Positions 10,486 through 47,725 of a stretch of DNA of 64,000 nucleotides are shown in pieces (the stretch's first letter is position 1; each line of letters begins with the position of its first letter). A program made the position numbers and the translations under genes. Where the stretch lies: the NCBI GenBank assembly GCA_947172415.1, contig OX359200.1, positions 6,264,501-6,328,500 of the forward strand, read 5' to 3'. The notes below the pieces were generated by a model, which ran no database searches, had not been told where the DNA came from, and worked only from the letters and a program-made list of their open reading frames with translations. This DNA is from Chondrosia reniformis. Lineage: Eukaryota; Porifera; Demospongiae; Chondrillida; Chondrillidae.

Positions 10486-11325
10486 AACTACATTGTTTGA
10501 ACTATTATTTTATTTTTTTAATTTGTACATTTAGATATATTTCTATATTTCAGAATTATCAAACTGAAATGAGCATTGTGCAGTGATTATTATACAATTC
10601 TAATTGGCGATAATAAATTCATATTGAGATGGTATAATAAGAAGCTAACCCAGCTCATCACAAATGTAAGCATTCAGTATACTCTTGTAAATTATCGTAT
10701 AACAAGTATTACGTGTAAAAAAGAAAAAGAAAAAGAAAATACACAAAAAAACGAAAAAGAAAAAAAGAAAACAATTCAAAGAAAGTAAAAGAAAAAGAAA
10801 AAAAAAAGAAAAAATGGCCACGAAAAAGAAGATAATACACATTTCAGATTGCTGTGCTACATATACGAATCACCATTCCATTAAAAGTGGTTTGACAGCC
10901 ATTTACATCAATCAATATTTCTTGGCATTCTCCTTCAGAATTGACTGAGAAGAGTAATATCTTTTCCATGCATGTGAAGTTTCTGGTTCCTTTGTAGAGT
11001 GCATTAACTGAGAGGCAGTGATATCAGACAAGGTTCAAGACAATGTTTGGTCTTCCTTTTATTTCATAGCAAAGTGGCAGTGTTTTGTCAGGAGATAATA
11101 GTACAGAGTGATGTATTAAAATGAAGGTTCATACACATTATTCACTTAATATTCCCTTCCATTATAATGAAAACATTATGTAATTCACTTTCATTTGCAA
11201 TTACCTGCATTAGGTTTGAAGGGAACTCTGACTGTATATAATATGAAATTAAACTCTAAGTCAGCAATAATATGTGTTAAAGTGATTAAGTTAAACTTAA
11301 GTTTGTCATTAAAGTTTCAGGAAAA
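10486..11325. other. Spacer and probable 5' region of the 390-aa gene
   Basis: AT-rich. It holds a purine tract (10719-10840) made of A-runs punctuated by G. Just before the ATG at 11326 is a good splice acceptor (AAAGTTTCAG ending at 11320), so the start codon probably lies a few bases into a second exon, with a non-coding first exon upstream. Confidence 0.4.
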
Positions 11326-12498
11326 ATGTCTTGTGAATCATTTAAAGAACAGCCAAGTCTAGATTCAGAGTTTGATCTATTGCCCTTGGCTAAGAAACCC
11401 CGAAAGAGAATCTCTGTGTTTTACGAATCGGTACATTCTTTTCCCTCAAATTCTACGGTAGTCCCTATCCCTCAACAATGTGAAGAAGACACTCAAGAGA
11501 TCAGTAATATGATTCCTACGGACTATGGCCAATCTAATTTTTCCATACCTGATCACAAAGAGGAGAACTATGATTGCTGTGATGAGCTAATTGCTGTTGC
11601 TGATGAATTTATGCCCGCCATAGAAAGTATTCCTGCCACAGTCGGTAAAGTTGTACCTTGTAGAGCACTTAAGTCCCTTAAGCATAAAGAGATTGTAATG
11701 AAGATGAGGTTGCTTAGGCACTCTTCTGTTGTGAAAGCAATTCAAGCTGCAGAAAAAATAATGTTGAGCCCTGACAAAGGTTGGCCATTAGATCTGAAGA
11801 TAGCCGCACTTCAATCTCTTGTTCCTTCCACCATTGAAGGAGTGAAGATCTTGGAGTACTGTCTAAAGCAATGTGACAAGCCTGAATGCGAAAATCCAAT
11901 CATTCTTAAATGTAGACTTCATTGCAAATTGATGTGGGCACACTCGTGCTGCAGTAAAGAGGAGTGTGAAAAGCATACAATTGCAGCTTTATCAGTAAGT
12001 GAACAGGTTGGACAAGATATCGGTCCACTCGTAACAGAAGAGTACTATGCACAACTGAAGCAAAGAAAAATGAACCTTCCAATTACAGAAAACTCAGAAG
12101 ATCAGCACTTGGTTAGAGAAATAGAAAAACATTACCTTAAGATCCTTAAAAGTGATGTGCCTTCGTGGATGGAGTTTTTCAAGGTGACCGCAATGAGACA
12201 CTTGGCACTCTTAAAGATGACGGAAGCTGTGTCATATCATAAAGTACAATTGCACCTGAAGGCTACAGCTTGCTTTGAAACTGGTAGCTATTTGATAAAA
12301 AGGTTGGAAGAAATGGAAGAACTAACAGAATTGGATAATGGATATATAGAATGCATCAAGTCCCTTCAATATCACATACAAGGAGATCAAAGCATGGCAA
12401 GACAATTCCAGCACCAGTGCATTGATCGACTGAACCAATGTGGCCGCCATGTGTCCTTTGTCACTAAACTGTTTGATCACTGCACTTCAATGAATTAA
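11326..12498 (+). CDS. 390-aa protein of unknown family
   Basis: A single uninterrupted frame with even amino-acid composition and coding-like codon use. The ATG lies five bases after a TTTCAG acceptor. Residues 23-28 (KKPRKR) look like a nuclear localisation signal. Residues 1-110 are rich in polar residues and probably disordered. From about residue 110 to the end the sequence is helical, with repeated amphipathic stretches and several Cys (e.g. CLKQCDKPEC, CCSKEECEKH), perhaps an alpha-solenoid/TPR-like fold. No catalytic motif was seen and I do not recognise the family. Its last ~160 codons are duplicated, broken, at 26597-27077. It sits directly left of the Death-PNP array. Confidence 0.75.
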   Translation: MSCESFKEQPSLDSEFDLLPLAKKPRKRISVFYESVHSFPSNSTVVPIPQQCEEDTQEISNMIPTDYGQSNFSIPDHKEENYDCCDELIAVADEFMPAIESIPATVGKVVPCRALKSLKHKEIVMKMRLLRHSSVVKAIQAAEKIMLSPDKGWPLDLKIAALQSLVPSTIEGVKILEYCLKQCDKPECENPIILKCRLHCKLMWAHSCCSKEECEKHTIAALSVSEQVGQDIGPLVTEEYYAQLKQRKMNLPITENSEDQHLVREIEKHYLKILKSDVPSWMEFFKVTAMRHLALLKMTEAVSYHKVQLHLKATACFETGSYLIKRLEEMEELTELDNGYIECIKSLQYHIQGDQSMARQFQHQCIDRLNQCGRHVSFVTKLFDHCTSMN

Positions 12499-12700: not shown

Positions 12701-13059
12701 AGAAGTGTAATTATAAATGTTTCAGACATTAAATTGCATGGTGAATAGCAAATCTGCTATATTAATTTATTTTGAATGGTTCATCTTTGAACATTTCAAT
12801 TTGAACATTATTTTAAAGATACAATATTATGTAGAATGACAACCTTATTGGCATTCAAAGGTGAACCATTCCTGATCATTTGATAAATTCAACACATGTA
12901 TATATATTATAGTTTAACCAACAATTACAACTATTATATTTACACATAGCAGAAAGCATATTTCTTGTAAATTTCAGATAGACAGCAATTCATGTAAATA
13001 TCCTCGAGCACGGAGAGGGTTCCCTTCGATGACTTTTAACGAAGCCATGGATATACTAG

Positions 13060-13937
13060 AAGTAGGGATTGATGCGCCCAAACATAGAGGTGATGTGTAT
13101 AGTTAAGTTTCAGTATGCCACTTCTGCAATGTTAGCCTTACCATATGATCACTTTCTTGTTTCGTTACTTTTTCTAGATGTGCCAATCACTGTTATAGTG
13201 CCATCCCTACTTTTAACTTCATTTTTAAATGTTTTTATTTAACTTGTATTGCCCCTTTTTTCTTGTTAATATTTGTTTTGAAAGTTTTCTTGGCGAAAAC
13301 TCGAAATAAAGTAGCAGAATAGACGATATAATAGAGAGCTCTAAATTAAAAAAATGGCGTCCGAAAAGATCTCAAATTCGTAAAGTATGTTTTCTACCGT
13401 TCTTTAACATTCGGTTTAGGATATTAAAGGGTCCATAATCGTTAAGAATACGACTGTATATAGGCCCTGCAAAGCGACTAAGAAATTCGATCGCGGGTGG
13501 CGGCAGTACCACAAATATTACTAACTCGAGTTACTTATTTTATATACAGAGATTTTGAAACTTCATTAAAAAATGGCGTTCGAAGAGGCCTTAAATTTGG
13601 CACTTTCAAAAGTAACACGCTTCGAATGGAGCGCGTTGAAATCTAGGGTAGCCTATTCCCTAGTTCGGAAACATTCATGACGATTTAGTATTTGTATGTA
13701 CCTTCGTAAGTTAGCGCTAGCTCATTTGAAAAAATAAGAAAAAAATGAGGAATTTCAGAATTTGACCTATTTCGGGTTTACCACTTTGCGAAGGTTGTAG
13801 AGCATCGAAACATGTTTGGTGTTTAGAAAAGCATGCAAAAACGGCTGCAAACACTGGAATGCAACCGAAAATCCCATCGTTGTTGATTTATGAGGTGTTA
13901 ATTGATAATACATTGAATAGGGCGGCCATCCCTACTT
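13060..13937 (+). mobile_element. Inverted-repeat element T1, copy A (878 bp)
   Basis: Bounded by the 10-base perfect terminal inverted repeat AAGTAGGGAT (13060-13069) and ATCCCTACTT (13928-13937). No transposase ORF, so non-autonomous (MITE-like). Internal landmarks are GCGCCCAAACATAG, GTTTCAGTATGCCACTT, CACTGTTATAGTGCCATCCC and TAACTCGAGTTACTTATTTT. Further whole or partial copies are at 19554-20433, 19014-19360 (-), 25677-26596 (-) and two fold-back derivatives at 16360-17000 and 22730-23407. They punctuate both Death-PNP units. Confidence 0.75.
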
Positions 13938-14570
13938 AGATAGTACTACTGTATTCTCTGATAAATGAATTACATCATGTATACATGCAATAGTGTGAAC
14001 TTTTGATATAATTAAAAAATATGCTCAGAAGTGGTGGTAAACATTTGAGTTGTCAACAAAGTCTGTATCAGGAACTTTCTCTTTGATCTTCTGTTTAGAT
14101 GTGAGTACTTTGGTTCACAATGTTGAATAAATCATTTCTTTTTGATGTGCCATCAAACTCAAGCAACTCCACAGATCTACATCATACATAGATCTATACT
14201 TATAATATATGGAGGCTCATCAGTGGGTGATCATGAACTGCTATAATAACAGTTTTTTGAAAACCCTTATACTTTCAATCTGCCCCAATTAAATAAAAAG
14301 TTGTGGTTTTGGCTCCTTCTTAAGTTCCACTAAAACTGACTTAGCCTATTGTCTACTAGCTTTAAGTAGATAATTTACCAACTTTAGTCCATCAAATGTT
14401 GCATAGTTAAATATAGCACATGCAATAATAACTTTCAAAACAGAGAATATATTTCTATAAAAAATAATGCATTCTGAAAAATGCACACCAAAATTAGAGC
14501 ACACATGAACTTAATCAAGTAGCTATACTCAGCCCAGCATTACACAGAATTGATGGCGTTAATTGATACC

Positions 14571-14743
14571 TCCGCGTGGCCGATTGCATATGGTTATGCG
14601 GCGTGCGTGGTAAATTCTCCGCGGCCGATTGCATAATGCAGCGTGGTAAATTTGGAGGCGTGGCTGTAACGCGTGATGTTTCTATATATAGTTTATGCTT
14701 CATATAAGGTAAATGGACATTTTTTCGGCCACCCCTTGGAGAT
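14571..14743 (+). promoter_or_regulatory. Probable promoter of Death-PNP gene 1
   Basis: A CpG-richer patch in an AT-rich setting. It has two spaced repeats of GGCCGATTGCATA (14579, 14633 region) and of CGTGGTAAATT, then a TATA-like TCTATATATA at 14681-14690, 54 bases before the ATG at 14744. The same arrangement precedes the second copy at 20960-21132. Confidence 0.5.
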
Positions 14744-17700
14744 ATGGCTGAAGTAAGAGTGGGAGAAGTTGATTTATCATTGCAGGAAACCGATTTCCCA
14801 GTCAATCCAAATCAGTTAGGTCAGGACATTAGGATATAGCTACCTACTTATCACTTTGAGTTGCGTATATAGCTACATGCTGATTGTCGATCCCTCACCT
14901 ATCGAATCAAATAACTGCTTATACAGGTTATCATTATATAGCAGTTCTTGAAAATGTGCATGTGATCATACACTATCTATGAACACATGTAACATATATG
15001 GTAGTCTATGGTGTAGCTAATCATTTATCAATCTATATCACCTGGGAGGAAGGTGTCTATATGTACAAGCTAAATAGAAATTTACAATAAATTTTAGCTC
15101 TTGCTCATCTTCCATATCTTAGAAAATTCCACCGAAACAAGCAAAAAAATCTCAATTGAAGTGCTTCTAGATTACATACCAGAATTCAGCCATAAATGGA
15201 ATACCTTGGGTATAAAACTTGGGCAAGACATTCTGGTTCAGCAAATAACAGGCCGACAAGAAAGCGATGAAGACAAGTGTATTAAAGTTGTCACAGCTTG
15301 GATTGGATCAGGCGAATCAGTGACTTGGCAAAATCTTTTGGAGAGTCTAGTTTCTCCTGCTGTGAGAATGGGATCCGTTGCAAATAAAATTGCAAAGGTT
15401 AGTACTAGGCTGCCATGTATCATTCAAGATATATATACAGTAAACCTTGTATTTGTAAACGCAAAGTTCGAATCAGTGACTACCTTAATACCTTATATTA
15501 AATAAGGTTTAACTGATTTATAAGATTGTGTAGTCTGCATGTAGGAAGTATAGTCCATATTTCTTTAAGGGAGTCTATCAAGGTATGGACTGGAGTAGAA
15601 GTTTCATGTGTTTACTGCCTTTATGGGTCGAATGTCTTCATCACTAAGATATAAGGGAATTGTCCCGGATTAACCTTCTCTCCATATATAGCTTTATCCA
15701 TTGGTCCCACTATAGACAGTGCTGCTTGTTTACAAACATCAAATGCAAAACAGAGGCCCTTTCAGACTTTTTATCCACTGAAAAAGTCTGAAAGAGTCTT
15801 CCAGTCCTTTAGCAATAGATTATCTATACTACATATAGAATAACATTTGTTATCATAATACCATGGGTCTTATATATGTTTACGTAAGTATTATTGTATT
15901 AGTTTGTCAAGTAAATGCTATATTAGTTCTATTAATAGACTATTAAAGATTGACCTCCAAGATAGGGACAACATCTCTACATAGGACAACATGACATATC
16001 CAAACGTGTCCATTACTCAGAGATTCCACTGTTTTCTGTTACAATTCAGATAATGATTTATATTATATACTTCCATAGAGATATAATTTGAAAGAAATTT
16101 TGGCATCTATCAACCGATCAAATTCATCCTCTAATAGAAAAATTGTAAATCCCACATCTTTAAGTGAAAAAGGTTAGTAATTTTAGAAATGAAGCCTGTG
16201 TGAAACAAGCAATTACTGGTCAACAAAGCCAGAATATACCTTTCACTAGTGCTCTGTCAAGGTTCAAGTTTGCTGGGGCACAAGGTGTCCCACGAGTTTT
16301 TTAAACTTGAACTACTTGTTTAATTAAACTTTAAATAAAATATATATATATTTATATATGTATATAAATAAGTAACTCGAGTTAGAAATGTTTGTGGTAT
16401 TGCCGCCCCCGCGATCGAATTACTTAGTCGCTTTGCAGGGCCTATATATAGTCGTATTCTTAACGATTATGGACCCTTTAATATCCTAAACCGAATGTTA
16501 AAGAACGGTAGAAAACTTACTTGACAAATTTGGGATCTTTTCGTACGCCATTTTTTAATTTAGAGCTCTCGTTCTATTCGAGTTTTCGCCAAGAAAACTT
16601 TCAAAACAGTGTTAATAAGAAAAATGGGGCAATACAAGTTAAATAAAAACATTCAAAAATGAAGTTAAAAGTAGGGATGGCACTATAACAGTGATTGGTA
16701 CATCTAGAAAAAGTAACGAAACAAGAAAGTGATCATATGGTAAGGCTAACATTGCAGAAGTGGCATACTGAAACTTAACTATACACATCACTTCTATGTT
16801 TGGGCGCATCGATCCCTATAGTTCTAGTGTATATCCATGATGCACCCAAACATAGAAGTGATGTGTTTCTGTATGCCACTTCTGCAATGTTAGCCTTACC
16901 ATATGATCACTTTCTTGTTTCGTTACTTTATCTAGATGTGCCAATCACTGTTATAGTGCCATCCCTACTTTTAACTTCATTTTTGAATATTTTTATTTAA
17001 CTTGTACACTCTTGAATATTGAACAATATTTATTTGACACCCTTAGTTCTGAGTTGTTAGTATTGCATGCAGGTGCATAAACAGTGATTGACAAAGTATA
17101 TGTAATAGTTATACAATGGCACTTTGCAGTGTATGGGTTATATATATATATGTACGTACATGCACAAGACCCGAGGGTGAGTGCATGTATAATCGATACA
17201 CCGCAAAGTGACATTGTATAACTGTCATACACTCCACCCCTAGGCTTTTTGGCATTTACTGAATTATCGGCGGGATATCGCATTGTATAACTATAATAAG
17301 AGGCCAAAGTGCCTCTTATTATAGTTATACAACAGTTGTTGAATATAATTTGCCTTGGTTACCCCAGCAACGGAGTGTATATGTGATATAATGTATAATG
17401 CAATGTACATACATATTGATATTTATATACATTTATCTTTCATCTTCTGTATAATATCCAGCTATGTCATGCCAGCCATCAGAACATAATGATATCAAGT
17501 TTATATTAATGACCGCCAACCCTACAGAGCAAGCTACTGTGCGTCACTTCTTGGGGTCATCCTCTATAGAGCCAAACAATACAATATTCCGATATACCTA
17601 CAAGACTGATCCTATCTTGCGTAATGCCAATGTTGAGCCTATCAAAGATGAAGGAGATTATGATACCTTCTCCATTAGTGGTCACAGAGGAATTCATGTC

Positions 17701-18351
17701 AGATGTGGGGAGATTGGTAGTGGTGGTAAAATAGGGTCTCTTGTCACTACAGCAAACATCTTGAAGAAGACCATAAAAGAAGAATGGCCTTTGCAAATCA
17801 TCTTCTGTGTTGGGTGCTGCGGTTGCAGTTCTAACAATGCCGACCTCCGTGGGTATGTATTGCTGACCAGACACCTTGAAGATTATAATCGAGGGAAAAT
17901 GCTACAAGATAAATTGCATCGAGTGCCAGAACCATACGACATGAATGAAACCTGGAAGATGTATATGGAAGATAAAGCTATCACTTGTCCAAATGAAGCA
18001 GCTTATAAATATAATGAGATTAAATATGAAAATGCAGACGCCATTCTTTCTGGAGACTTTGTGGTGAAAGACAAAACCCAAGCAGAGGAAATTCGAGGCA
18101 AGAGAGAATGTGTTGGAATTGAAATGGAAGGAAAAGGCATTGCAGAAGCTGTCACTATATTCCCTTCTGGTAGCTTCCTTGTTGTTAAAGGTGTGTCTGA
18201 CTACGCTGGTTCAGATAAGTCAGAGAAAGCAAAGGCCAACTGGTTTGGAAAGGACACTGAATCACCCGTTTCTGATGATGAGAGGCAAATGATAGCAACC
18301 ATTCAAGCTACAGCTTTAGTTTGCCGTACCATTGCTATTAAGATGCAATGA
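14744..18351 (+). CDS. Death domain-nucleoside phosphorylase fusion, copy 1
   Basis: Proposed exons: 14744-14819 (starts MAEVRVGEVDLSL), 14927-14955 (tentative), 15098-15397, 16079-16172 and 17462-18351. All join in phase to a predicted 462-aa protein. Residues ~36-135 look like a Death-fold domain (WNTLGIKLGQ, then CIKVVTAWIGSGESVTWQNL and a conserved helix ending IANKIAK or similar), a protein-interaction module of apoptosis and innate immunity. Residues ~136-166 are a Ser/Asn linker. Residues ~167-462 are PNP_UDP/MTAN-like: LMTANPTEQATV at the N-terminal strand, a VGCCGCSS glycine loop, EMEGKGIAEA (Glu387/Glu389) as ribose-binding motif, and VKGVSDYA with the putative catalytic Asp413. The family cleaves nucleosides or adenosyl-type substrates; the substrate here is unknown. 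The exon 1 donor (GTCAGG) is weak. Likely a cytoplasmic signalling or effector protein. Confidence 0.75.
16360..17000. mobile_element. Fold-back derivative of element T1 in the Death-PNP 1 intron
   Basis: An inverted part-copy of T1 (from AAGTAACTCGAGTTA to TTTGGGCGCATCGATCCC) is followed, after a short TAGTTCTAGTGTATATCC centre, by a direct part-copy (GCACCCAAACATAG to TTTTTATTTAACTTGTA). The two arms can pair over about 150 bp. It lies in the last intron, upstream of the PNP exon. The 201-base ORF inside the right arm is incidental. Confidence 0.6.
17085..17390. mobile_element. Palindromic MITE pair upstream of the PNP exon
   Basis: Two nested inverted repeats. In the first, TTATACAATGGCACTTTGC faces GCAAAGTGACATTGTATAA. 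The second is flanked by TATACACTCC and GGAGTGTATA and has a long central hairpin around AAGAGGC/GCCTCTT (17291-17333). It includes an X-box-like GTTACCCCAGCAAC at 17358-17371. A related element is at 58299-58484. Confidence 0.65.
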
Positions 18352-18587
18352 AATTACCATTTTCTAGCTAATTTACTCTAGAGACAGAAGATGGATAGAC
18401 ATTTATATTAGTTAAAGTTACTGTAGTGACAGATCAAACCTGTTTACATATATGCAATTATATATTCATGATTGCTGTAAAAGTTTAATAAAGAATATAT
18501 AATGTACGTATGCAAAATTAATGTATAACGCTGAATATACTATATATTATGACAAAATTAATAAGTTTTAATGCACACAATTCAGTT

Positions 18588-18884
18588 TTAATATTGCATC
18601 CTGCCTTGATATTTCTTAAAGATCCCTTGCTCAACCTCTAATTCACTCCTCAACATCTTCAATTCTGTATCATTTATCATCAAAATATGGTTCATTTTAA
18701 CTGATCGAAATGCTTGACAAAAGTATATGAGATCTAGACTTTCGTTATGGAAATCGAATTTTGAATGCGGCCATAACTTACACATGTGGTTACTGTAGTA
18801 ATTCTGTGAGATGACATCTTTAGCTTTGCTGTTGATGTTACCAATACACATTGGTATGAAAGTTGATTTATTAGATTCTTGCAT
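18588..18884 (-). CDS. Small convergent ORF of unknown function, copy 1 (98 aa)
   Basis: A minus-strand frame running MQESNKSTF... to ...KKYQGRMQY, with a mixed charged and hydrophobic composition that reads like protein (e.g. NHILMINDTELKMLRSELEV). It is convergent with Death-PNP 1, about 240 bp past its stop. The second unit has a longer version (25137-25514) with mostly amino-acid-changing differences, but there the first ATG is ATA. No known domain was recognised. It might be a lone exon or a transposon fragment. Confidence 0.4.
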   Translation of the reverse strand: MQESNKSTFIPMCIGNINSKAKDVISQNYYSNHMCKLWPHSKFDFHNESLDLIYFCQAFRSVKMNHILMINDTELKMLRSELEVEQGIFKKYQGRMQY

Positions 18885-19013
18885 CTTTCATTCCCCTATA
18901 CAGAATACAAAGGAGAATTATATAGTGTTACGTTGCTATAATAGAATGTGAGCATATTGAGTCAGCAACACTTATTGAAATCAGAGTAATCAGAGAGTAC
19001 GGCAGTACTCTCT

Positions 19014-19360
19014 AAGTAGTGATGGCCGAAAAAAAACATGGCCGCCCTATTCATATTATCAATTAACACCTCATAAATCAACAACGATGGGATTTTCGGT
19101 TGCATTCGAGTGTTTGCAGTCGTTTTTGCATGCTTTTCTAAACGCCAAAACATGTTTCGATGCTCTACTACCTTCGCAAAGTGGTGAAACCGAAATAGGC
19201 CAAATTATGAAATTCATCATTTTTTCTTCTTTTTTCAAATGAGCTAGCGCCAACATGCGAACTTACCTACAAACAAGGGTGTTGTATGATTCATGCATAT
19301 ATAGCTAATGCTTCACTGTGTAACATCCCTTTCTTGTTTCTGTGCTTTTTCCCTACTTCT
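19014..19360 (-). mobile_element. Element T1, truncated inverted copy C
   Basis: Starts at AAGTAGTGAT (19014) in inverted orientation and matches T1 to about 19265. It then switches to ~85 bp of unrelated sequence before a terminal CCCTACTT-like end near 19358. An internally deleted or rearranged derivative at the unit 1/unit 2 boundary. Confidence 0.55.
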
Positions 19361-19553
19361 AGTATATCCATGATGCACCCAAACATAGAAGTGATATATA
19401 TTATAGTTTAACCAACAATTGCAACTATTATATTTACACATAGCAGAAAGCATATTTCTTGTAAATTTCAGATAGACAGCAATTCATGTAAATATCCTCG
19501 AGCACGGAGAGGGTTCCCTATGATGACTTCTAACGAAGCCATGGATATACTAG

Positions 19554-20433
19554 AAGTAGGGATCGATGCGCCCAAACATAGAAGTGATGTGTATAGTTAA
19601 GTTTCAGTATGCCACTTTTGCAATGTTAGCCTTACCATATGATCACTTTCTTGCTTCGTTACTTTATCTAGATGTGCCAATCACTGTTATAGTGCCATCC
19701 CTACTTTTAACTTCATTTTTGAATGTTTTTATTTAACTAGTATTGTCCCTTTTTTCTTGTTAATATTTGTTTTGAAAGTTTTCTTGGCGAAAACTCGAAA
19801 TAAAGTAGCAGAATAGACGATATAATAGAGAGCTCTAAGATCCCAAATTTGTTAAGTATGTTTTCTACCGTTCTTTAACATTCCGTTTAGGATATTAAAG
19901 GGTCCATAATCGTTAAGAATACGACTGTATATAGGCCCTGCAAAGCGACTAAGAAATTCGATCGCGGTTGGCGGCAGTACCACAAATATTTCTAACTCGA
20001 GTTACTTATTTTATATACAGAGAATTTGAAACTTCATTAAAAAATGGCGTTCGAAGAAGCCCTAAATTTGGCACTTTCAAAAGTAACACGCTTCGAATGG
20101 AGCGCGTTGAAATCTAGGGTAGCCTATTCCCTAGTTCGGAAACATTCATGACGATTTAGTATTTGTATGTACCTGCGTAAGTTCGCATGTTAGCGCTAGC
20201 TCATTTGAAAAAAGAAGAAAAAAATGAGGAATTTCAGAATTTGACCTATTTCGGGTTTACCACTTTGCGAAGGTTGTAAAGCATCAAAACAAATTTGGTG
20301 TTTAGAAAAGCATGCAAAAACGGCTGCAAACACTCGAATGCAACCGAAAATCCCATCGTTGTTGATTTATGAGGTGTTAATTGATAATACATTGAATAGG
20401 GCGGCCATGTTTTTTTTTCGGCCATCACTACTT
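19554..20433 (+). mobile_element. Element T1, copy B (880 bp)
   Basis: Termini AAGTAGGGAT (19554-19563) and ATCACTACTT (20424-20433). Its left flank (19393-19553) is nearly identical to the left flank of copy A (12898-13059), showing that the flank was duplicated with the unit. No transposase ORF. Confidence 0.75.
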
Positions 20434-20959
20434 AGAGAGTACTACTGTATTTGATCTTCTGTTTAGATGTGACATCTTCTGTCATTTTGTGAGTACTCTG
20501 GTTCACAATGTTGAATAAATCATTTCTTTTTGATGTGCCATCAAACTCAAGCAACTCCACAGATCTACATCATACATAGATCTATACTTATAATATATGG
20601 AGGCTCATCAGTGGGTGATCATGAACTGCTATAATAACAGTTTTTTGAAAACCCTTATACTTTCAATCTGCCCCAATTAAATAAAAAGTTGTGGTTTTGG
20701 TTCCTTCTTAAGTTCCACTAAAACTGACTTAGCCTATTGTCTACTAGCTTTAAGTAGATAATTTACCAACTCTAGTCCATCAAATGTTGCATAGTTAAAT
20801 ATGGCACATGCAGTAATAACTTTCAAAACAGAGAATATATTTGTATAAAAATTAATGCATTCTGAAAAATGCACACCAAAATTAGAGCACACATGAACTT
20901 AATCAAGTAGCTATACTCAGCCCAGCATTACACAGAATTGATGGCGTTAATTGATACCC

Positions 20960-21132
20960 TCCGCGTGGCCGATTGCATATGGTTATGCAGCGTGCGTGGT
21001 AAATTCTCCGCGGCCGATTGCATAATGCAGCGTGGTAAATTTGGAGGCGTGGCTGTAACGCGTGATGTTTCTATATATAGTTTATGCTTCATATAAGGTA
21101 AATGGACATTTTTTCGGCCACCCCTTGGAGAT
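20960..21132 (+). promoter_or_regulatory. Probable promoter of Death-PNP gene 2
   Basis: Same doubled GCCGATTGCATA and GTGGTAAATT repeats and TATA-like TCTATATATA (21070-21079) as in copy 1, with only one or two base differences. Conserved spacing to the ATG at 21133. Confidence 0.5.
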
Positions 21133-24100
21133 ATGGCTGAAGTAAGAGTGGGAGAAGTTGATTTATCATTGCAGGAAACCGATTTCCCAGTCAATCCAAA
21201 TCAGTTAGGTCAGGACATTAGGATATAGCTACCTACTTATCACTTTGAGTTGCGTATATAGCTACATGCTGATTGTCGATCCCTCACCTATCGAATCAAA
21301 TAACTGCTTATACAGGTTATCATTATATAGCAGTTCTTGAAAATGTGCATGTGATCATACACTATCTATGAACACATGTAACATATATGGTAGTCTATGG
21401 TGTAGCTAATCATTTATCAATCTATATCACCTGGGAGGAAGGTGTCTATATGTACAAGCTAAATAGAAATTTACAATAAATTTTAGCTCTTGCTCATCTT
21501 CCATATCTTAGAAAATTCCACCGAAACAAGCAAAAAAATCTCAATTGAAGTACTTATAGATTACATACCAGAATTCAGCCATAAATGGAATACCTTGGGT
21601 ATAACACTTGGGCAAAACAGACTGGTTCAGCAAATAACAGGCCGACAAGAAAGCGCTGATGCCAAGTGTATTAAAGTTGTCACAGCTTGGATTGGATCAG
21701 GCGAATCAGTGACTTGGAAAAAGCTTTTGAAGAGTCTAGTTTCTCCTGCTGTGAGAATGGGATCCGTTGCAAATAAAATTGCAAAGGTTAGTACTAGGCT
21801 GCCATGTATCATTCAAGATATATATACAGTAAACCTTGTATTTGTAAACACAAAGTTCGAATCAGTGACTACCTTAATACCTTATATTAAATAAGGTTTA
21901 ACTGATTTATAAGATTGTGTAGTCTGCATGTAGGAAGTATAGTCCATATTTCTTTAAGGGAGTCTATCAAGGTATGGACTGGAGTAGAAGTTTCATGTGT
22001 TTACTGCCTTTATGGGTCGAATGTCTTCATCACTAAGATATAAGGGAATTGTCCTGAATTAACCTTCTCTCCATATATAGCTTTATCCATTGGTCCCACT
22101 ATAGACAGTGCTGCTTGTTTACAAACATCAAATGCAAAACAGAGGCCCTTTCAGACTTTTTATCCACTGAAAAAGTCTGAAAGAGTCTTCCAGTCCTTTA
22201 GCAATAGATTATCTATACTACATATAGAATAACATTTGTTATCATAATACCATGGGTCTTATATATGTTTACGTAAGTATTATTGTATTAGTTTGTCAAG
22301 TAAATGCTATATTAGTTCTATTAATAGACTATTAAAGATTGACCTCCAAGATAGGGACAACATCTCTACATAGGACAACATGACATATCCAAACGTGTCC
22401 ATTACTCAGAGATTCCACTGTTTTCTGTTACAATTCAGATAATGATTTATATTATATACTTCCATAGAGATATAATTTGAAAGAAATTTTGGCATCTATC
22501 AACCCACCAAGTCCATCCTCTAATAGAAAAATTGTAAATCCCACATCTTTAAGTGAAAAAGGTTAGTAATTTTAGAAATGAAGCCTGTGTGAAACAAGCA
22601 GTTACTGGTCAACAAAGCCAGAATATACCTTTCACTAGTGCTCTGTCAAGGTTCAAGTTTGCTGGGGCACAAGGTGTCCCACGAGTTTTTTAAACTTGAA
22701 CTACTTGTTTAATTAAACTTTAAATAAAATATATATATATTTATATATGTATATAAATAAGTAACTCGAGTTAGAAATGTTTGTGGTATTGCCGCCCCCA
22801 CGATCGAATTACTTAGTCGCTTTGCAGGGCCTATATATGTAGTCGTATTCTTAACGATTATGGACCCTTTAATATCCTAAACCGAATGTTAAAGAACGGT
22901 AGAAAACTTACTGGGATCTTTTCGTACGCCATTTTTTAATTTAGAGCTCTCGATCTATTCTGCTACTTTATTTCGAGTTTTTACCAAGAAAACTTTCAAA
23001 ACAGTGTTAATAAGAAAAATGGGACAATACAAGTTAAATAAAAACATTCAAAAGTGAAGTTAAAAGTAGGGATGGCACTATAACAGTGATTGGCACATCT
23101 AGAATTAGTAATGAAACAAGAAAGTGATCATATGGTAAGGCTAACATTGCAGAAGTGGCATACTGAAACTTAACTATACACATCACTTTTATGTTTGGGC
23201 GCATCGATCCCTATAATTCTAGTGTATATCCATGATGCGCCCAAACATAGAAGTGATGTGTATAGTTAAGTTTCAGTATGCCACTTCTGCAATGTTAGCC
23301 TTACCATATGATCACTTTTTTGTTTCGTTACTTTATCTAGATGTGCTAATCACTGTTATAGTGCCATCCCTACTTTTAACTTCATTTTTGAATATTTTTA
23401 TTTAACTTGTACACTCTTGAATATTGAACAATATTTATTTGACACCCTTAGTTCTGAGTTGTTAGTATTGCATGCAGGTGCATAAACAGTGATTGACAAA
23501 TTTAAAGTATATGTAATAGTTATACAATGGCACTTTGCAGTGTATGGGTTATATATATATATGTACGTACATGCACAAGACCCGAGGGTGAGTGCATGTA
23601 TAATCGATACACCGCAAAGTGACATTGTATAACTGTCATACACTCCACCCCTAGGATTTTTGGCATTTACTGAATTATCGGCGGGATATCGCCTTGTATA
23701 ACTATAATAAGAGGCCAAAGTGCCTCTTATTATAGTTATACAACAGTTGTTGAATATAATTTGCCTTGGTTACCCCAGCAACGGAGTGTATATGTGATAT
23801 AATGTATAATGCAATGTACATACATATTGATATTTATACATTTATCTTTCATCTTCTGTATAATATCCAGCTATGCCATGCCAGCCATCAGAACATAATG
23901 ATATCAAGTTTATATTAATGACCGCCAACCCTACAGAGCAAGCTACTGTGCGTCACTTCTTGGGGTCATCCTCTATAAAGCCAAGTGATACAATATTCCA
24001 ATATACCTACAAGACTGATCCTATCTTGCGTAATGCCAATGTTGAGCCTATCAAAGATGAAGGAGATTATGATACCTTCTCCATTAATGGTCACAGAGGA

Positions 24101-24756
24101 ATTCATGTCAGATGTGGGGAGATTGGTAGTGGTGGTAAAATAGGGTCTCTTGTCACTACAGCAAACATCTTGAAGATCGCCAGACAAAAAAATGGCCTTT
24201 GCAAATGGTCTTCTGTGTTGGGTGCTGCGGTTGCAGTTCTAACAATGCCGACCTCCGTGGGTATGTATTGCTGACCAGAAAACTTGAAGATTATAATCGA
24301 GGGAAAATGCTACAAGATAAATTGCATCGAGTGCCAGAACCATACGACATGAATGAAACCTGGAAGAAGTATATGGAAGAGAAAGCTATCACTTGTCCAG
24401 ATGAAGCAGCTAAATATAATGAGATTAAATATGAAAATGCAGATGCCATTCTTTCTGGAGACTTTGTGGTGAAAGACAAAACCCAAGCAGAGGAAATTCG
24501 AGGCAAGAGAGAATGTGTTGGAATTGAAATGGAAGGAAAAGGCATTGCAGAAGCTTTCACTATATTCCCTACTGGTAGCTTCCTTGTTGTTAAAGGTGTG
24601 TCTGACTACGCTGGTTCAGATAAGTCAGAGCAAGCAAAGGCCAACTGGTTTGGAACGGGCACTAAATCACCCGTTTCTGATGATGAGAGGCAAATGATAG
24701 CAACCGTTCAAGCTACAGCTTTAGTTTGCCGTACCATTGCTAATAAGATGTATTGA
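21133..24756 (+). CDS. Death domain-nucleoside phosphorylase fusion, copy 2 (frameshifted as assembled)
   Basis: Exons by correspondence with copy 1: 21133-21208, 21316-21344 (tentative), 21487-21786, 22468-22561 and 23871-24756, all at a constant offset of 6389 up to the linker exon. The Death exon and the linker exon are open. In the PNP exon the frame shifts near 24177-24190, where copy 2 is one base shorter beside an A-run. The second half is open from 24199 to the TGA at 24754-24756 and keeps EMEGKGIAEA and VKGVSDYA. One codon (Tyr) is also missing in frame near 24407. Differences from copy 1 are mostly amino-acid-changing. Either a recently broken copy or an intact gene with a homopolymer miscall. 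Confidence 0.65.
22730..23407. mobile_element. Fold-back derivative of element T1 in the Death-PNP 2 intron
   Basis: Counterpart of the 16360-17000 fold-back, with small indels: it lacks about 12 bases after AAAACTTACT and retains a longer TCTGCTACTTTATTTCGAG stretch. It was therefore present before the tandem duplication. Confidence 0.6.
23495..23795. mobile_element. Palindromic MITE pair, second-unit copy
   Basis: Same nested hairpins as 17085-17390, including the AAGAGGC/GCCTCTT stem and the X-box-like GTTACCCCAGCAAC, immediately before the PNP exon of copy 2. Confidence 0.65.
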
Positions 24757-25136
24757 AATTACCATTTTCTAACTAATTTACTCTAGAGACAGAAGATGGA
24801 TAGACATTTATATTAGTTAAAGTTACTGTAGTGACAGATCAAACCTGTTTACATATATGCAATTATATATTCATGATTGCTGTATAAGTTTAATAAAGGA
24901 TATATAATGTACGTATGCAAAATTAATATATATATATATAACGCTGAATATACTATGTATATATTATGACAAAGTTAATAAGTTTTAATGCACACAATTC
25001 AGTTTTAATATTGCATCCAGCCTCAATCAGGCTGGGGTTTTGCAGTCCTTCAGAAATGAGAAGCCTTCAGGTGGTCGCTCTTTTGTAGGCTGACAGCCAT
25101 GGTAAATTTGAAAAATTTGCTCCCTTTGAAGAGTTA

Positions 25137-25514: not shown

Positions 25515-25676
25515 TGGTATGAAAGTTGATTTATTAGATTCTTGTATCTTTAATTCCCCTATACAGAATACAAAGGAGAATTATATAGTGTTACGTTGCT
25601 ATAATAGAATGTGAGCATATTGAGTCAGCAACACTTATTGAAATCAGAGTAATCAGAGAGTACGGCAGTACTCTCT

Positions 25677-26596
25677 AAGTAGTGATGGCCGAAAAAAAAA
25701 CATGGCCGCCCTATTCAATGTATTATCAATTAACACCTCATAAATCAACAACGATGGGATTTTCGGTTGCATTCGAGTGTTTGCAGTCGCTTTTGCATGC
25801 TTTTCTAAACGCCAAAACATGTTTCGATGCTCTACAACCTTCGCAAAGTGGTGAAACCGAAATAGGCCAAATTCTGAAATTCCTCATTTCTTCTTTTTTC
25901 AAATGAGCTAGCGTTAACATACGAACTTACGCAGGTACATACAAATACTAAATCGTCATGAATGTTTCCGAACTAGGGAATAGGCTACCCTAGATTTCAA
26001 CGCGCTCCATCCGAAGCGTGTTACTTTTGAAAGTTCCAAATTTAGGGCCTCTTTGAACGCCATTTTTTTAATTAAGTTTCAAATTCTCTGTATATAAAAT
26101 AAGTAACTCGAGTTAGAAATATTTGTGGTACTGCCGCCAACCGCGATCGAATTTCTTAGTCGCTTTGCAGGGCCTATATACAGTCGTATTCTTAACGATT
26201 ATGGACCCTTTAATATCCTAAAATGAATGTTAAAGAACGGTAGTCTAGAAAACTTACTTGACAAATTTGGGATCTTTTCGGACGCCATTTTTTTAATTTA
26301 GAGCTTTCTATTATATCGTCTATTCTGCTACTTTATTTCGAGTTTTCGCCAAGAAAACTTTCAAAACAAATATTAACAAGAAAAAAGGGGCAATACAAGT
26401 TAAATAAAAACATTCAAAAATGAAGTTAAAAGTAGGGATGGCACTATAACAGTGATTGGCACATCTAGAATTAGTAATGAAACAAGAAAGTGATCATATG
26501 GTAAGGCTAACATTGCAGAAGTGGCATACTGAAACTTAACTATACACATCACTTCTATGTTTGGGCGCATCATGGATATACTAGAAGTAGGGATTG
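25677..26596 (-). mobile_element. Element T1, inverted copy D
   Basis: Inverted T1 from AAGTAGTGAT (25677) to GGGCGCATC near 26570. It is then joined to ATGGATATACTAGAAGTAGGGAT, the left flank and terminus seen beside copies A and B. The broken copy of the 390-aa gene begins immediately after, so this element marks a rearrangement breakpoint. Confidence 0.65.
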
Positions 26597-27077
26597 ACAA
26601 GATATTGGTCCACTCATAACAGAAGAGTACTATGCACAACTGAAGCAAAGAAAAATGAACCTTCCAATTACAGAAAACTCAGAAGATCAGCACTTGGTTA
26701 GAGAAATAGAAAAACATTACCTTAAGATCCTTAAAAGTGATGTGCCTTCGTGGATGGAGTTTTTCAAGGTGACCGCAATGAGACATTTGGCACTCTTAAA
26801 GATGACAGAAGCTGTGTCATATCATAAAGCACAATTGCACCTGAAGGTTACAGCTTGCTTTGAAACTGGTAACTATTTGATAAAAAGGTTGGAAGAAATG
26901 GAAGAGCCTCACAGAATTGGATAATGGATATATAGAATGCATCAAGTCCCTTCAATATCACGTACAAGGAGATCAAAGCATGGCAAGACAATTCCAGCAC
27001 CAGTGCATTGATCGACTGAACCAATGTGGTCGCCATGTGTCCTTTGTCACTAAACTGTTTGATCTCTGCACTTAAAT
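26597..27077 (+). pseudogene. 5'-truncated, frameshifted copy of the 390-aa gene
   Basis: Matches 12013-12498 (C-terminal ~160 codons) at high identity. It starts abruptly at the end of element T1 copy D with no promoter or upstream exon. A one-base insertion at about 26905 (AGAGCCTCACAG against AGAACTAACAG) breaks the frame after RLEEMEE. The remaining frame ends at a TAA created near 27074. Confidence 0.8.
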
Positions 27078-31481: not shown

Positions 31482-31744
31482 CTACAAAAGGAAAAAAGAA
31501 AAAAGAAGAAAATGAAGACTAATTATAATTGTTAAATACGTAGGCTGTGAAAACATCCCATACTGTGATACATTTGCACCTCTTAAGCATAAAGATCTTA
31601 GTCTTTTCACAGATATGAATTTCCCTATGAATACGGTGTGATCTTCATATTGAGAGCAGTAACTGATTAATGTACACATACAGTAATTTTTATACATTTA
31701 GACTATTTAACAAATACAGGTCCTAAAGTATATCTTGTCTGACC

Positions 31745-32515
31745 AGTAGTTCCAACCACACCCCCAACCTTCAAACCAGTGTTCCAACCACACCCCCAAC
31801 CTTCAAACCAGTGTTCCAACCACACCCCCAACCTTCAAACCAGTGTTCCAACCACACCCCCAACCTTCAAACCAGTGTTCCAACCACACCCCCAACCTTC
31901 AAACCAGTGTTCCAACCACACCCCCAACCTTCAAACCAGTGTTCCAACCACACCCCCAACCTTCAAACCAGTGTTCCAACCACACCCCCAACCTTCAAAC
32001 CAGTGTTCCAACCACACCCCCAACCTTCAAACCAGTGTTCCAACCACACCCCCAACCTTCAAACCAGTGTTCCAACCACACCCCCAACCTTCAAACCAGT
32101 GTTCCAACCACACCCCCAACCTTCAAACCAGTGTTCCAACCACACCCCCAACCTTCAAACCAGTGTTCCAACCACACCCCCAACCTTCAAACCAGTGTTC
32201 CAACCACACCCCCAACCTTCAAACCAGTGTTCCAACCACACCCCCAACCTTCAAACCAGTGTTCCAACCACACCCCCAACCTTCAAACCAGTGTTCTAAC
32301 CACACCCCCAACCTTCAAACCAGTGCTCCAACCACACCCCCACCCTTCAAACCAGTGTTCCAACCACACCCCCACCCTTCAAACCAGTGTTCCAACCACA
32401 CCCCCAACCTTCAAACCAGTGTTCTAACCACACCCCCAACCTTCAAACCAGTGCTCCAACCACACCCCCACCCTTCAAACCAGTGTTCCAACCACACCCC
32501 CTCTACCCCTTTAAG
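31745..32515 (+). repeat. 32-bp minisatellite, about 24 units
   Basis: Unit CAAACCAGTGTTCCAACC followed by ACACCCCCAACCTT, almost perfect for the first ~17 units, with point variants (CCAACC to CCACCC, GTTCC to GCTCC or GTTCT) at the 3' end. Because 32 is not a multiple of three and the unit has no stop, all three forward frames stay open and give the same 32-aa cycle. The 253-aa ORF is therefore explained by the repeat, not by a gene. Confidence 0.95.
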
Positions 32516-43625: not shown

Positions 43626-44593
43626 TTAAAATAAGTTATTCATTCATATCGTAGATAGTTACTTAATGTGTACATATGTATAAAAGGGGCAGCATAGTAA
43701 ACCTAATGTGTCAAAGTGTAAAGTGAGGTACATATTGAATACAATGCAGTGCAAATATTAACTATATTGTGTAAACACTACACTGTATATGCTTATATAT
43801 AGATAACAGCTTTTTATAAATTTACAAATTTCATTTACAAATGATTGTTATTGACACTAGAGAGGTGGTTTTACTTGAATGAGTACCACATCCCAACATG
43901 GAGGACAACACTGGTCTTGACCTACAAAGCATTATGAAAAGATTTGTTTCCATCCATTCAATTGTGATTAAACATTATCTTTTGAATAATTTCTCTTTTG
44001 ATTTTTTGAGCGTCTAAAAACACAGTTGGTGTTGATTGAGACATTGAGAATCTTCTTCACCGACAACCAGCTTGACAATAATACAAAAGGACTTGGCTAT
44101 CGGCGGATTCTAGCAATGTGATTCATACTGCCAGTCACCACACCTCTGCTGATATACACTGGTAATAGTATACAATGAAGAGACTGTAGAACTACATCAA
44201 GTACATGAAATGGCTGGCTTGCCTATGCGCTATCAAACTAAATGCTATATAGGCTCTTTAATCCTACACTGGTACTAACTGAAACATTAGCAATTACAAC
44301 TTATCAAGCGCACTAAAAAATGACTTTATCATTATGAGAGTTATTCTGGCTTGCTAGACCCTCCCTAAACAAGCACTGAGTGTAGGGACCTACTACATGA
44401 GAGTAGGACCCTTGTAAAAGTAGTACTAATTGGACAATAACCTCTTCATTAAAGGCAAATCTGGTTCAACATTTTAACCTTGTAAACTGATATTCAAATT
44501 GTATATTATTGTTTATGAGCACATTAATTGTCTGAAGTATAGCAAGGTCATCACATGTGTCCAGACATTATTAAGAGGAAAAACATAAAAGAA

Positions 44594-44664
44594 GCAATTG
44601 CTGGGAAATTAACCCAGAACAGCTGGTTTTGACCATCAGTGCTCTGCCACTGAGCTACAACTGC
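44594..44664 (-). ncRNA. tRNA-like sequence (pseudo-tRNA or SINE head)
   Basis: On the minus strand it folds as a 71-nt cloverleaf: acceptor GCAGTTG/CAATTGC, D-arm GCTCAGTGGCAGAGC, T-arm CTGGG/CCCAG. The anticodon stem has an A-C mismatch, the position before the anticodon (TCA) is G instead of T, and the T-loop lacks the TTC motif. It is therefore probably a tRNA-derived repeat, not a working tRNA. A similar A-box sequence is at 63011 on +. Confidence 0.5.
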
Positions 44665-45674: not shown

Positions 45675-47725
45675 ATGTCTGCAGAGGTAATTATATTATT
45701 AGCTTCACTTGTTTGCTAATTGTTTAACGTTAAAGATGTGGTTTCTCATATTACTACTCGTTGATTCTCTTAATTTGTGCAATTTTATTAGCCTAACTTA
45801 TTTTATTCGTTCAGGTTTGTGTCGCCAAAGCGCGCTACTCCAACATTGCTGAATCCAAAGACGAATTATCCTTCAGGCAAGGAGATATCATTTCTGTACT
45901 TCAGAAGGAGACAGGAATGGACGATTGGTGGCTTTGCCAAGCTGCCGGACGCGTGGGTCTAGTACCTGCAAACTATCTTTTAGAGGTGCAACCGATCCCG
46001 GCAGTTCTAGCTGAAGATAGTATCGATGGAGTAGAAGAACATATTTACGACCATATTCCCGCCGAAAAGAATGATATTCTAGAACGTCGCCACAGTGATA
46101 ACCTCTCTCCCTTCCATCGCAAAGAAGGCGAGGGTCTATATGACGTGCCGCGTAGAAACTTGAGCAGCAGTGCTTTGGGCCTGAACGCCATAACACTTGC
46201 GGGTAACCGCAGCCAATCGCCCACCCTCCAGGACCCATTATATGATCGTCCCCGAGCTTACAGCAGTGACCAGACGGAACCGCTGTACGACTACCCGAAG
46301 AGCAACGCGCCTATCTACCAAGTTCCTCCCACTACTTTGCTACAGAACGGTATATACGACGTTCCCAGGTCGAACGCGCCTTCCCGTTCCTTGGACGACG
46401 GGTATTCTAGTCCGAAAAGAGAGTCCGTCCTCCCTCTAAGTATAGACATGATGACTGTAGAGGACGCCGGGAGGAGAATGAACCAGCTGAACGAAGAAAT
46501 GAACCGCTCCTGGGAAGAGCTAGTGGAGAGTGTGTATAACGCTAGATGGGATGGTACCTTTCGAGAGCTGACGGCCGCGAGAACAGTAGCGGCTACACAG
46601 TCATTTGACGCTCATTTAAACGCATTCCAGGAATTTGTTAAAGGTTGCATAAATGTTCTCTCACAAACCAAAGAAGATGCGCCTCGCAGAAAGTTTAGTG
46701 ATCATTTCTCCAAGTTACACGAATCGCGTGTTGATTTCCTTGACAAGTTGGGCTTCATTCAGGATGGAAGTGGAGACATTCAAAGTTCAGCTCAATCTCT
46801 TATTTCCCATGGCCTCTCAATGCTTCAGACAATCAGGGAGCTAGACATCCTTATAAGGGCATTCAGGTCTCTCATTTTCAAGAAATCTGCGACAGAGAAT
46901 GAAAATTCAAGATCAGCTGGATATGCCTCAGCTTCATTAGATGTAAGGCATTTGAGACGCAGGCCAACTGATGCCCTCCCGCCCACACCTGATTCCACCA
47001 CTTCTGAACATGACATGCAAAAGAATTTGGAAAAGGTGAAGAATTTCTCCAAAATTATAACAACACCACAGGGATTGAGTAACTTGAAGTCAAATGACAA
47101 CAGACTTAAACACCAATCTGAATCTTGGGGTAGCCAGGAGAACCTTTTAACCACCTCTCCCACACATGGCATCTACGTGTCACCTCCTTCAGGCATCAAC
47201 CCTTACAGTCCCTTCTCCAGTTCTTCTCCTGCCAGCCCAGTTTCAGACACTGATTCATCATGTCTGACACCCACAGATGTCCAAACAGTGCAGTCATACA
47301 CTAGAGAATTTGTCTCAAACCTCCCTAAACTAATCAGATCTGTCCAGAAGCTGAGGGGTTGTGTTGAAGCCACCAAGTCTCAAGCACTCAAGAGGTCATC
47401 TAGAGGATCTGAGGGAGAAGACCAAACAAGGAGCCAGATTGTTAGTGCAAGCGGTGATGTCATACAAGTTGGTCATTGTATTGTTATCCAAGCTGATGCT
47501 GTTTTCAAAAAGATTGAAAATGAAGCAGCAAGACATGCTGTTACTACTGCCAGCAATGGTATCTCCATCTCCCTTAGACAGCTTGGGGAAGATTCTAAGG
47601 CAGCCATTTTGCAATATCCTAACCTAGCTGCCATTGATCGAGTGGGAGATGGTGTCGAAAATGTTAGAACCTCAACTGTAGCACTTGGAAAGTTACTGAA
47701 GGAACTAACAATTAGTGCACATTAA
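45675..47725 (+). CDS. Cas-family docking protein (p130Cas/BCAR1-NEDD9-like)
   Basis: Two exons: 45675-45686 (MSAE) and 45815-47725, in phase, 640 aa. Residues ~5-62 are an SH3 domain (ARYSN, ELSF, DDWWLC, GLVPANYL). A substrate region follows with YxxP motifs at Tyr113 (YDVP), 147 (YDRP), 162 (YDYP), 172 (YQVP) and 185 (YDVP), plus a YDHIP at 82, which when phosphorylated recruit Crk/Nck SH2 domains. Residues ~215-340 form a helical bundle like the Cas serine-rich domain, then a Ser/Pro-rich stretch, then a C-terminal FAT-like helical domain (~490-640). The protein works at integrin adhesions with FAK and Src. Oddities: only five YxxP sites, far fewer than vertebrate p130Cas, and no evident YDYVHL Src-binding motif before the C-terminal domain. 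Confidence 0.92.

Follow-up and report, generated by a model that had tools for sequence, protein, structure and literature searches.

Whether an animal can couple a Death domain directly to an enzyme of the PNP/MTAN fold, i.e., without a central nucleoside triphosphatase (NTPase), is the question raised by a tandem pair of genes in the sponge Chondrosia reniformis. The pair lies in the window considered here, namely, the whole stretch of 64,000 nucleotides that was analysed, corresponding to contig C12:6264501-6328500 of a 117-Mb, 15-contig genome (GC 35%; introns present). A preliminary description of this DNA had proposed that splice phases join a Death exon, a short linker exon and a PNP exon into a protein of some 462 amino acids, present twice. 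Indeed, the five predicted exons of copy 1 were found to join in frame to encode 462 amino acids, as proposed. With about even confidence, the pair is taken here to represent genes for an immune executor that lacks an NTPase, would be recruited through its Death domain, probably by NLR sensors, and would hydrolyze ATP or a related nucleotide.

The two copies and their exons

The features that make up the pair, in window positions, are as follows.

14100..18606: tandem duplication unit, copy 1; 96.9% identity with 20488-25023 by self-comparison
14744..14819, plus strand: putative first coding exon, copy 1, from an ATG to a weak-looking donor; phase-compatible, poorly supported
14927..14955, plus strand: putative 29-nucleotide exon, copy 1, required for phase in the earlier model; no independent support
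15098..15397, plus strand: Death-domain exon, copy 1, 100 amino acids
16079..16172, plus strand: linker exon, copy 1, 31 amino acids; phase 0 in, phase 1 out
16359..17006: interspersed repeat inside the intron 5' of the copy 1 PNP exon; palindromic part 16633-17006
17462..18351, plus strand: copy 1 exon for the PNP/MTAN fold, including the stop; 295 amino acids counted from the ATG at 17464
20488..25023: tandem duplication unit, copy 2, by self-comparison
21133..21208, plus strand: putative first exon, copy 2, identical to copy 1
21316..21344, plus strand: putative 29-nucleotide exon, copy 2, identical to copy 1
21487..21786, plus strand: Death-domain exon, copy 2; protein 90% identical to copy 1
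22468..22561, plus strand: linker exon, copy 2
23871..24756, plus strand: PNP exon, copy 2, frame-broken; one-base deletion near 24182, 5' frame ending at 24274

This model is secure in its Death, linker and PNP exons, whereas the two 5' exons are poorly supported, since only phase favors them and their donors look weak. A whole-genome search with the stretch 14600-15097 returned no match outside the two tandem copies, and the 5' exons and adjoining introns show zero differences between these copies. Copy 2 has the same splice sites as copy 1 and is without one base near 24182, inside a run of A residues, the base being present in copy 1 and in both paralogues on contig C8. Because of this missing base, the copy 2 PNP frame as assembled stops at 24274, 5' of the EMEG and VSDYA motifs, which counts against a pair of working genes; the loss may be a real break or an assembly error in the A run. 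As such, what had been described as one protein present twice, with both motifs kept, stands as a working protein for copy 1 (E22, E220, E222, and D246) but not for copy 2 as assembled, and the five-exon structure holds for the three main exons of copy 1.

The Death assignment of the 15098..15397 exon draws on its relatives. When searched alone against the PF00531 (Death) hidden Markov model, as had been suggested earlier, the copy 1 exon gave E=0.027 and 15.0 bits, below the curated 22.6 bits, whereas members of its family pass. Counting the two copies, that family numbers 58 homologous exons genome-wide (56 others), and 13 of the 58 overlap PF00531 matches, with relatives such as those at loci L033 (26.5 bits) and L035 (27.4 bits) exceeding the cut-off and six of nine aligned members reaching E<=0.05 (best, 2.5e-7). 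When the family profile was compared with the PDB, the top matches were the Death proteins FADD and RIPK1, albeit weakly (0.049 and 0.071; range 0.049-0.27), and 10 to 12 of the 17 rows were Death proteins by name; the profile of the window exon also aligned with the clear Death exon of a C8 gene (E=3.9e-10). On the negative side, the two-sequence AlphaFold model of the exon, although all helical, is unusable (predicted local distance difference test score, pLDDT, 38.7). Overall, the genome contains at least 142 Pfam Death exons, while none of 14 prokaryote genomes used as control gave a match.

Active site and family of the PNP domain

The window PNP domain scored 16.1 bits against PF01048 (PNP_UDP_1), below the curated 25.1 bits, yet its AlphaFold model, built on a 12-row alignment (pLDDT 64; predicted template modeling score 0.72), has the fold of the superfamily. 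When this model was compared with solved structures by VIA-align, MTAN-type nucleosidases accounted for all 50 PDB entries listed, in agreement with a PNP/MTAN fold.

A whole-genome PNP search returned 25 matches, from which 22 PNP exons were counted after two split matches were joined and one 31-residue fragment was omitted; the genome thus has at least 22. An alignment of 18 paralogues has E22, E220, and D246 in every row and E222 in all except locus L025 (C1:3269032-3272880; PNP exon 1501-2349). In the latter, EMEG reads EQGS, with loss of the ribose-binding Glu, and a Death exon lies about 0.7 kb 3' of the PNP stop (PF00531 0.00032, below the cut-off). Residues were then compared in an alignment of 13 of the 22 paralogues, ten bacterial relatives, and three Escherichia coli enzymes, namely, MTAN, DeoD, and AMN. 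The position of E22 is occupied by E in 13/13 paralogues, 10/10 bacterial relatives, and MTAN, by R in DeoD, and by P in AMN; D246 is kept in all 26 aligned sequences. A nucleosidase is recognized here by a Glu replacing the phosphate-binding Arg, a ribose-binding Glu, and a catalytic Asp, corresponding to E12, E174, and D197 of MTAN. E22, E222, and D246 align with these three acids, as expected of an N-ribosyl hydrolase, and mutants of MTAN E12 and D197 are named in the titles of PDB entries. Judged by these residues, the active site is of the hydrolase rather than the phosphorylase type, since E22 has its counterpart in MTAN and not in DeoD or AMN.

In terms of family, the best match of the window PNP domain was the PADLOC model PDC-M60C (42.8 bits, E=7.5e-12), with the CBASS-type model 'Effector, PN-superfamily' giving E=2.2e-5. 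That the domain is instead an ordinary MTA/SAH (methylthioadenosine/S-adenosylhomocysteine)-type nucleosidase or phosphorylase with a metabolic role appears improbable. The fold and every solved-structure match are indeed MTAN-type, which sits poorly with a defense assignment, and the NCBIfam MTAN equivalog NF004079 does recognize the domain (E=5.6e-6), but at 26.0 bits, as compared to a cut-off of 169, and the window protein is nearer to defense effectors. Moreover, K252, found in 13/13 paralogues, is shared by eight of the ten bacterial relatives and none of the three E. coli enzymes, while PNP_UDP_1 genes at C6:8053624 and C12:232494 score better than does the window domain. In profile comparisons, for which two of the ten bacterial relatives were used, E-values of 5.7e-12 (PNP-caspase) and 5.5e-9 (REC-PNP) were obtained, as compared to 4.9e-6 for E. 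coli MTAN, 0.003 for DeoD, and 0.016 for AMP nucleosidase. The preference for a defense PNP effector is weaker or mixed in the three paralogues scanned: locus L024 favors PDC-M60C over MTAN (19.8 vs 16.4 bits), whereas L015 is a tie (18.5 vs 18.2 bits) and L009 favors MTAN (18.5 vs 13.8 bits), the last two counting against the favored reading. A tree groups the animal PNP domains (99/98), yet no origin was drawn from it, because of a long-branch warning and because the housekeeping enzymes could not be placed.

The bacterial relatives came from a scan of one genome per species across 84,980 species, from which ten were returned. Their likeness to the sponge domain is partly selected, since they were fetched with the family profile and the EMEG pattern, and counts for correspondingly less. 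All ten match the defense 'Effector' model and nine match PDC-M60C. Six contain an additional in-frame domain, i.e., NB-ARC (twice), a STAND-like NTPase (below cut-off), bDLD3, caspase, or receiver, with the other four being PNP only. One relative, L055, is the third gene in an intact series ordered PDC-M60A, PDC-M60B (receiver), and PDC-M60C (receiver-PNP), an order that fits the three-gene Detocs system as described in passages of PMC11249213; PDC-M60 is inferred here to be Detocs. In another, the cyanobacterial (Richelia) PNP-bDLD3 gene at L051 5458-7140, the gene lies directly 3' of helicase/nuclease genes matching PADLOC PDC-S37. A tblastn search with the PNP protein against plasmid and phage collections gave no match.

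Divergence of the copies and reuse of the modules

When the two copies were compared, differences were found at 12 of 300 positions of the Death exon, 4 of 94 of the linker exon, and 32 of 886 of the PNP exon, as opposed to 0 of 105 in the 5' exons. The introns differed at 0/107, 0/142, 3/681, 1/186, and 2/453 positions, those flanking the linker exon being the 3/681 and 1/186 cases. Divergence of the Death, linker, and PNP exons together (48/1284) is hence several times that of the intervening introns (6/1571; Fisher p=1.9e-11), an intron count that omits the repeat at 16359-17006 (16/638) and the flanks (8/644 and 6/255), with every non-exon site giving 36/3106. Of the changed codons, 37 of 39 are non-synonymous when codons beside insertions or deletions are omitted (Death exon, 10/11; linker exon, 4/4), with proportions of 0.040 for non-synonymous (pN) and 0.013 for synonymous (pS) sites (Fisher p=0.040; binomial p=0.010). 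From copy 1 to copy 2, the Death-exon changes are mostly charge changes, for a net +7, and the catalytic positions are untouched by the PNP changes. A neighboring duplicated open reading frame (ORF), serving as control, presented no such contrast (coding 13/488 vs non-coding 5/157). Exons that outpace introns have a precedent in snake venoms, and the preferred reading of the exon-only divergence seen here is selection.

The same contrast could arise with no positive selection if gene conversion had homogenized the introns or if exons had been exchanged with paralogues, an alternative that is a serious contender, though the less probable of the two. While the changes are clustered and copy 2 and C8a agree in 23 of the 36 columns at which the PNP exons differ, the excess of non-synonymous codons speaks against this alternative, and the assembly holds no close donor for the Death exon, the next best exon being 41% identical to the window copies. 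Synonymous sites are, however, marginally above introns (p=0.047), which weighs against selection. Comparisons of other paralogues point both ways. Fifteen pairs were run, of which two were identical and two had no alignable flank, leaving 11 informative, non-independent pairs; the exon exceeded the alignable flank in eight of these and did not in L009/L018, L009/L020, and L010/L012. Across pairs, the ratio of non-synonymous to synonymous rates ranged from about 0.55 (L015/L019) to 3.6 (L012/L017).

The joining of Death and PNP modules was also considered across the genome. Using the union of 187 Death exons, a same-strand Death exon was found within 5 kb 5' of 5/22 PNP exons, as compared to 0/22 on the opposite strand. 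With the window set aside, the count is 3/20, where about 0.004 would be expected for each (P=6.8e-5 if independent, the two C12 cases not being so); adding a weak Death exon on C1 brings the total to 6/22. Two counts weaken the case. Among the 22 PNP exons, 17 had no Death exon detected within 5 kb 5' (16 if the weak C1 exon is counted), and same-strand Death exons lie 3' of 7/22, one of them being copy 2's own, such that part of the pairing may reflect a general clustering of Death genes. At the same time, no PNP exon among the 22 has any of the 101 listed NACHT exons of the genome, a lower bound obtained by scoring part of the candidates, within 10 kb, in agreement with the earlier suggestion that no central NTPase is involved. 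Two further architectures were rejected, namely, that the C7 PNP exons share a messenger RNA (mRNA) with the Death exons 3' of them, as the PNP frame stops before those Death exons, and that the C10 PNP domain is the tail of an EGF/Ig receptor, as Ig and EGF exons are found upstream in L021 and none in L022. EGF and Ig-like exons indeed precede one C10 PNP exon (L021 and L043), and three similar ORFs, of which the one scanned matched DUF4476 (7.2e-6), precede a C7 PNP exon (L041; C7:603100-606500).

Two loci speak to how modules are combined. A gene on C8 shares DNA with the window from position 17019, the shared part taking in the PNP exon together with some 440 intron bases at about 90% identity, with the C8 alignments starting at 17019 and 17007, i.e., at the edge of the repeat that ends at 17006. 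Its Death exon, 3.6 kb 5' of the PNP exon (PF00531 1.2e-10), shares 30% protein identity with that of the window. To judge from these comparisons, the C8 PNP exon stands behind a Death exon unrelated to the window's, the modules having been reshuffled. On C1, a Death-like exon (PF00531 only 0.065) lies 3.7 kb 5' of a PNP exon and shares 76-91% protein identity with nine Death exons having a NACHT exon within 7 kb 3'. These nine are among 22 relatives, with none having a NACHT exon on the 5' side or on the opposite strand. At the DNA level, the C1 locus matches L060, a Death-NACHT locus, at 87% across the Death exon plus adjoining sequence and at 97% deeper in the intron, with the likeness ending before the next exon of the PNP gene; the edges of the two Death exons are alike in phase 1. 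A phase-1 chain of Death, second exon, and PNP is possible in the C1 gene, using sites picked among several candidates; the second exon has no Pfam match and is CARD-like by eye. Since the Death exon of one PNP gene is nearly that of NACHT genes, recruitability of such proteins receives circumstantial support, although the C1 exon may alternatively belong to a broken NACHT gene that precedes an independent PNP gene. For the Death type of the window itself, a NACHT exon is found 3' of only 3 of 58 relatives (32-37% identity; controls, 0), which tells against the proposal.

These same data bear on the possibility, considered unlikely, that the window holds two genes, one for a Death-only protein and one for a stand-alone PNP nucleosidase starting at ATG 17464. 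An in-frame ATG directly follows the acceptor in both the window and C8 copies and could start a Death-free protein, a point that, like the 17 PNP exons with no 5' Death exon detected, tells against a fusion. Still, in 16 of 21 PNP exons inspected by eye, with the other five being ambiguous, the acceptor leaves a codon to be completed by a single base of an upstream exon, and most have no ATG at the acceptor. The linker exon, moreover, has a 3' phase that fits the PNP exon and a pattern of change like that of the Death and PNP exons, while the C1 gene offers, with chosen sites, the consistent phase-1 chain noted above. A Death-PNP gene with no central NTPase, as envisaged in the preliminary description, is accordingly well supported for copy 1 by phase, family membership, and the fast evolution of these exons.

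In the surroundings of the pair, copies of the repeat, both direct and inverted, occur around and inside the genes (window 12900-13929, 16359-17006, 19394-20408, 22748-23411, and 25667-26571). A 402-amino-acid ORF with no Pfam match (11290-12498) and its partial duplicate (26598-26924), the latter with one inserted base and an early stop, flank the pair. Farther away are a tandem array of units of about 32 bases that is open in several frames (31742-32501), a transfer RNA gene on the minus strand scoring above the Rfam gathering threshold (44593-44664), and a p130Cas-like gene with SH3 and CAS_C domains (45797-47725).

Possible role and relation to known systems

The tandem pair, with one gene intact and the other frame-broken as assembled, would encode an NTPase-free immune executor. 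Its N-terminal Death domain would let sensors, plausibly the Death-NACHT receptors encoded in this genome, draw the protein into the Death assemblies that they nucleate. Once clustered, the C-terminal nucleosidase would strip ATP, dATP, or a related adenine nucleotide of its base, and the loss of nucleotide would lead to cell shutdown or death. The domains, splice phases, active-site residues, family, selection pattern, and module reuse can be read from the DNA; what we infer is that there is a single mRNA, that the enzyme is a hydrolase acting on ATP, that NACHT receptors recruit the protein, and that the cell dies, with recruitment, drawn from the C1 case, being the boldest step. The immune role proposed earlier is likewise favored by the proximity to bacterial defense effectors and by the nucleosidase-type site, with chemistry, substrate, and recruitment being its conjectural parts. 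Hydrolysis of ATP or dATP is suggested by analogy to Detocs, the PNP effector of which was reportedly described, together with other bacterial immune ATP nucleosidases, by Rousset and colleagues in Cell in 2023.

More tentatively, and with rather low confidence, the finding that one PNP tail occurs with unrelated Death heads, and one Death head with both NACHT and PNP tails, could mean that a bacterial one-protein STAND-PNP immune receptor was split. Unlinked NACHT sensors and PNP executors would then carry interchangeable Death heads exchanged by recombination in introns, with fast diversifying selection on the Death, linker, and PNP exons of the executors keeping matched pairs of heads private. 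It is also conceivable, albeit improbable, that the PNP domain acts by making a signal (a nucleotide freed of its base) and not by draining a pool. Release of a second messenger is predicted for PNPase domains of bacterial conflict systems in passages of PMC7159879, whereas the characterized Detocs effector depletes ATP, which it cuts into adenine and ribose 5'-triphosphate (passages of PLoS Biol 2024, PMC11249213). The latter passages also put PNP domains of eukaryotic immune-like proteins in print.

An immune executor of the kind favored here would resemble several published proteins. Like proteins of the sponge Amphimedon that combine Death-like, TRADD-N, and PNPase domains (eLife 2021, PMC8195603), it has an N-terminal Death fold and a C-terminal PNPase, the latter being one of several variable tails there, and belongs to a lineage-specific expansion; whereas they are defined by a TRADD-N domain in between, the model here has only a 31-amino-acid linker exon at that place, with no TRADD-N found in the window ORFs scanned with Pfam, a scan to which ORFs within introns did not belong. 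With the Detocs effector it shares a PNP-fold effector domain and PDC-M60C as nearest family, although none of the three Detocs genes (kinase, receiver, and receiver-effector) was found among the window ORFs scanned, a Death exon upstream replacing the receiver. Bacterial PNP effectors are switched by receiver, STAND NTPase, caspase, or other fused modules, a role that in the present case would fall to a Death domain. In bacterial PNPase-bDLD3 fusions, such as L051, PNP is likewise joined to a Death-like domain (PMC8195603), yet bDLD3 is C-terminal there and the gene adjoins the PDC-S37 helicase genes. Fungal NLRs with an N-terminal PNP_UDP domain also use PNP as a eukaryotic immune effector (PMC12881547), but fused to an NTPase receptor, unlike what is seen here, where no listed NACHT exon is within 10 kb. 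As compared to MTAN, the fold and, by alignment, the three catalytic acids are alike, whereas the score far below the equivalog cut-off, a C-rich GCCGC motif, K252, and insertions set the sponge domain apart. Related Death/PNPase architectures are hence already published, and a direct Death-PNP fusion would be a variant of these; no such direct fusion was found in the open-access literature searched, although it may be in print, the main 2023 paper lying outside that literature.

The gene described here probably joins a cell-death signaling domain to an enzyme resembling the ones through which virus-attacked bacteria destroy their own ATP. The exon-only divergence of the copies points to an arms race or to specialization of contacts and supplies candidate residues, while the nearly identical Death exon in one PNP gene and nine NACHT-linked genes makes recruitment directly testable. 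Should the proposal be correct, an animal would be using an ATP-destroying effector of a bacterial kind that is not fused to its sensor, an executor summoned instead through Death-Death contacts.

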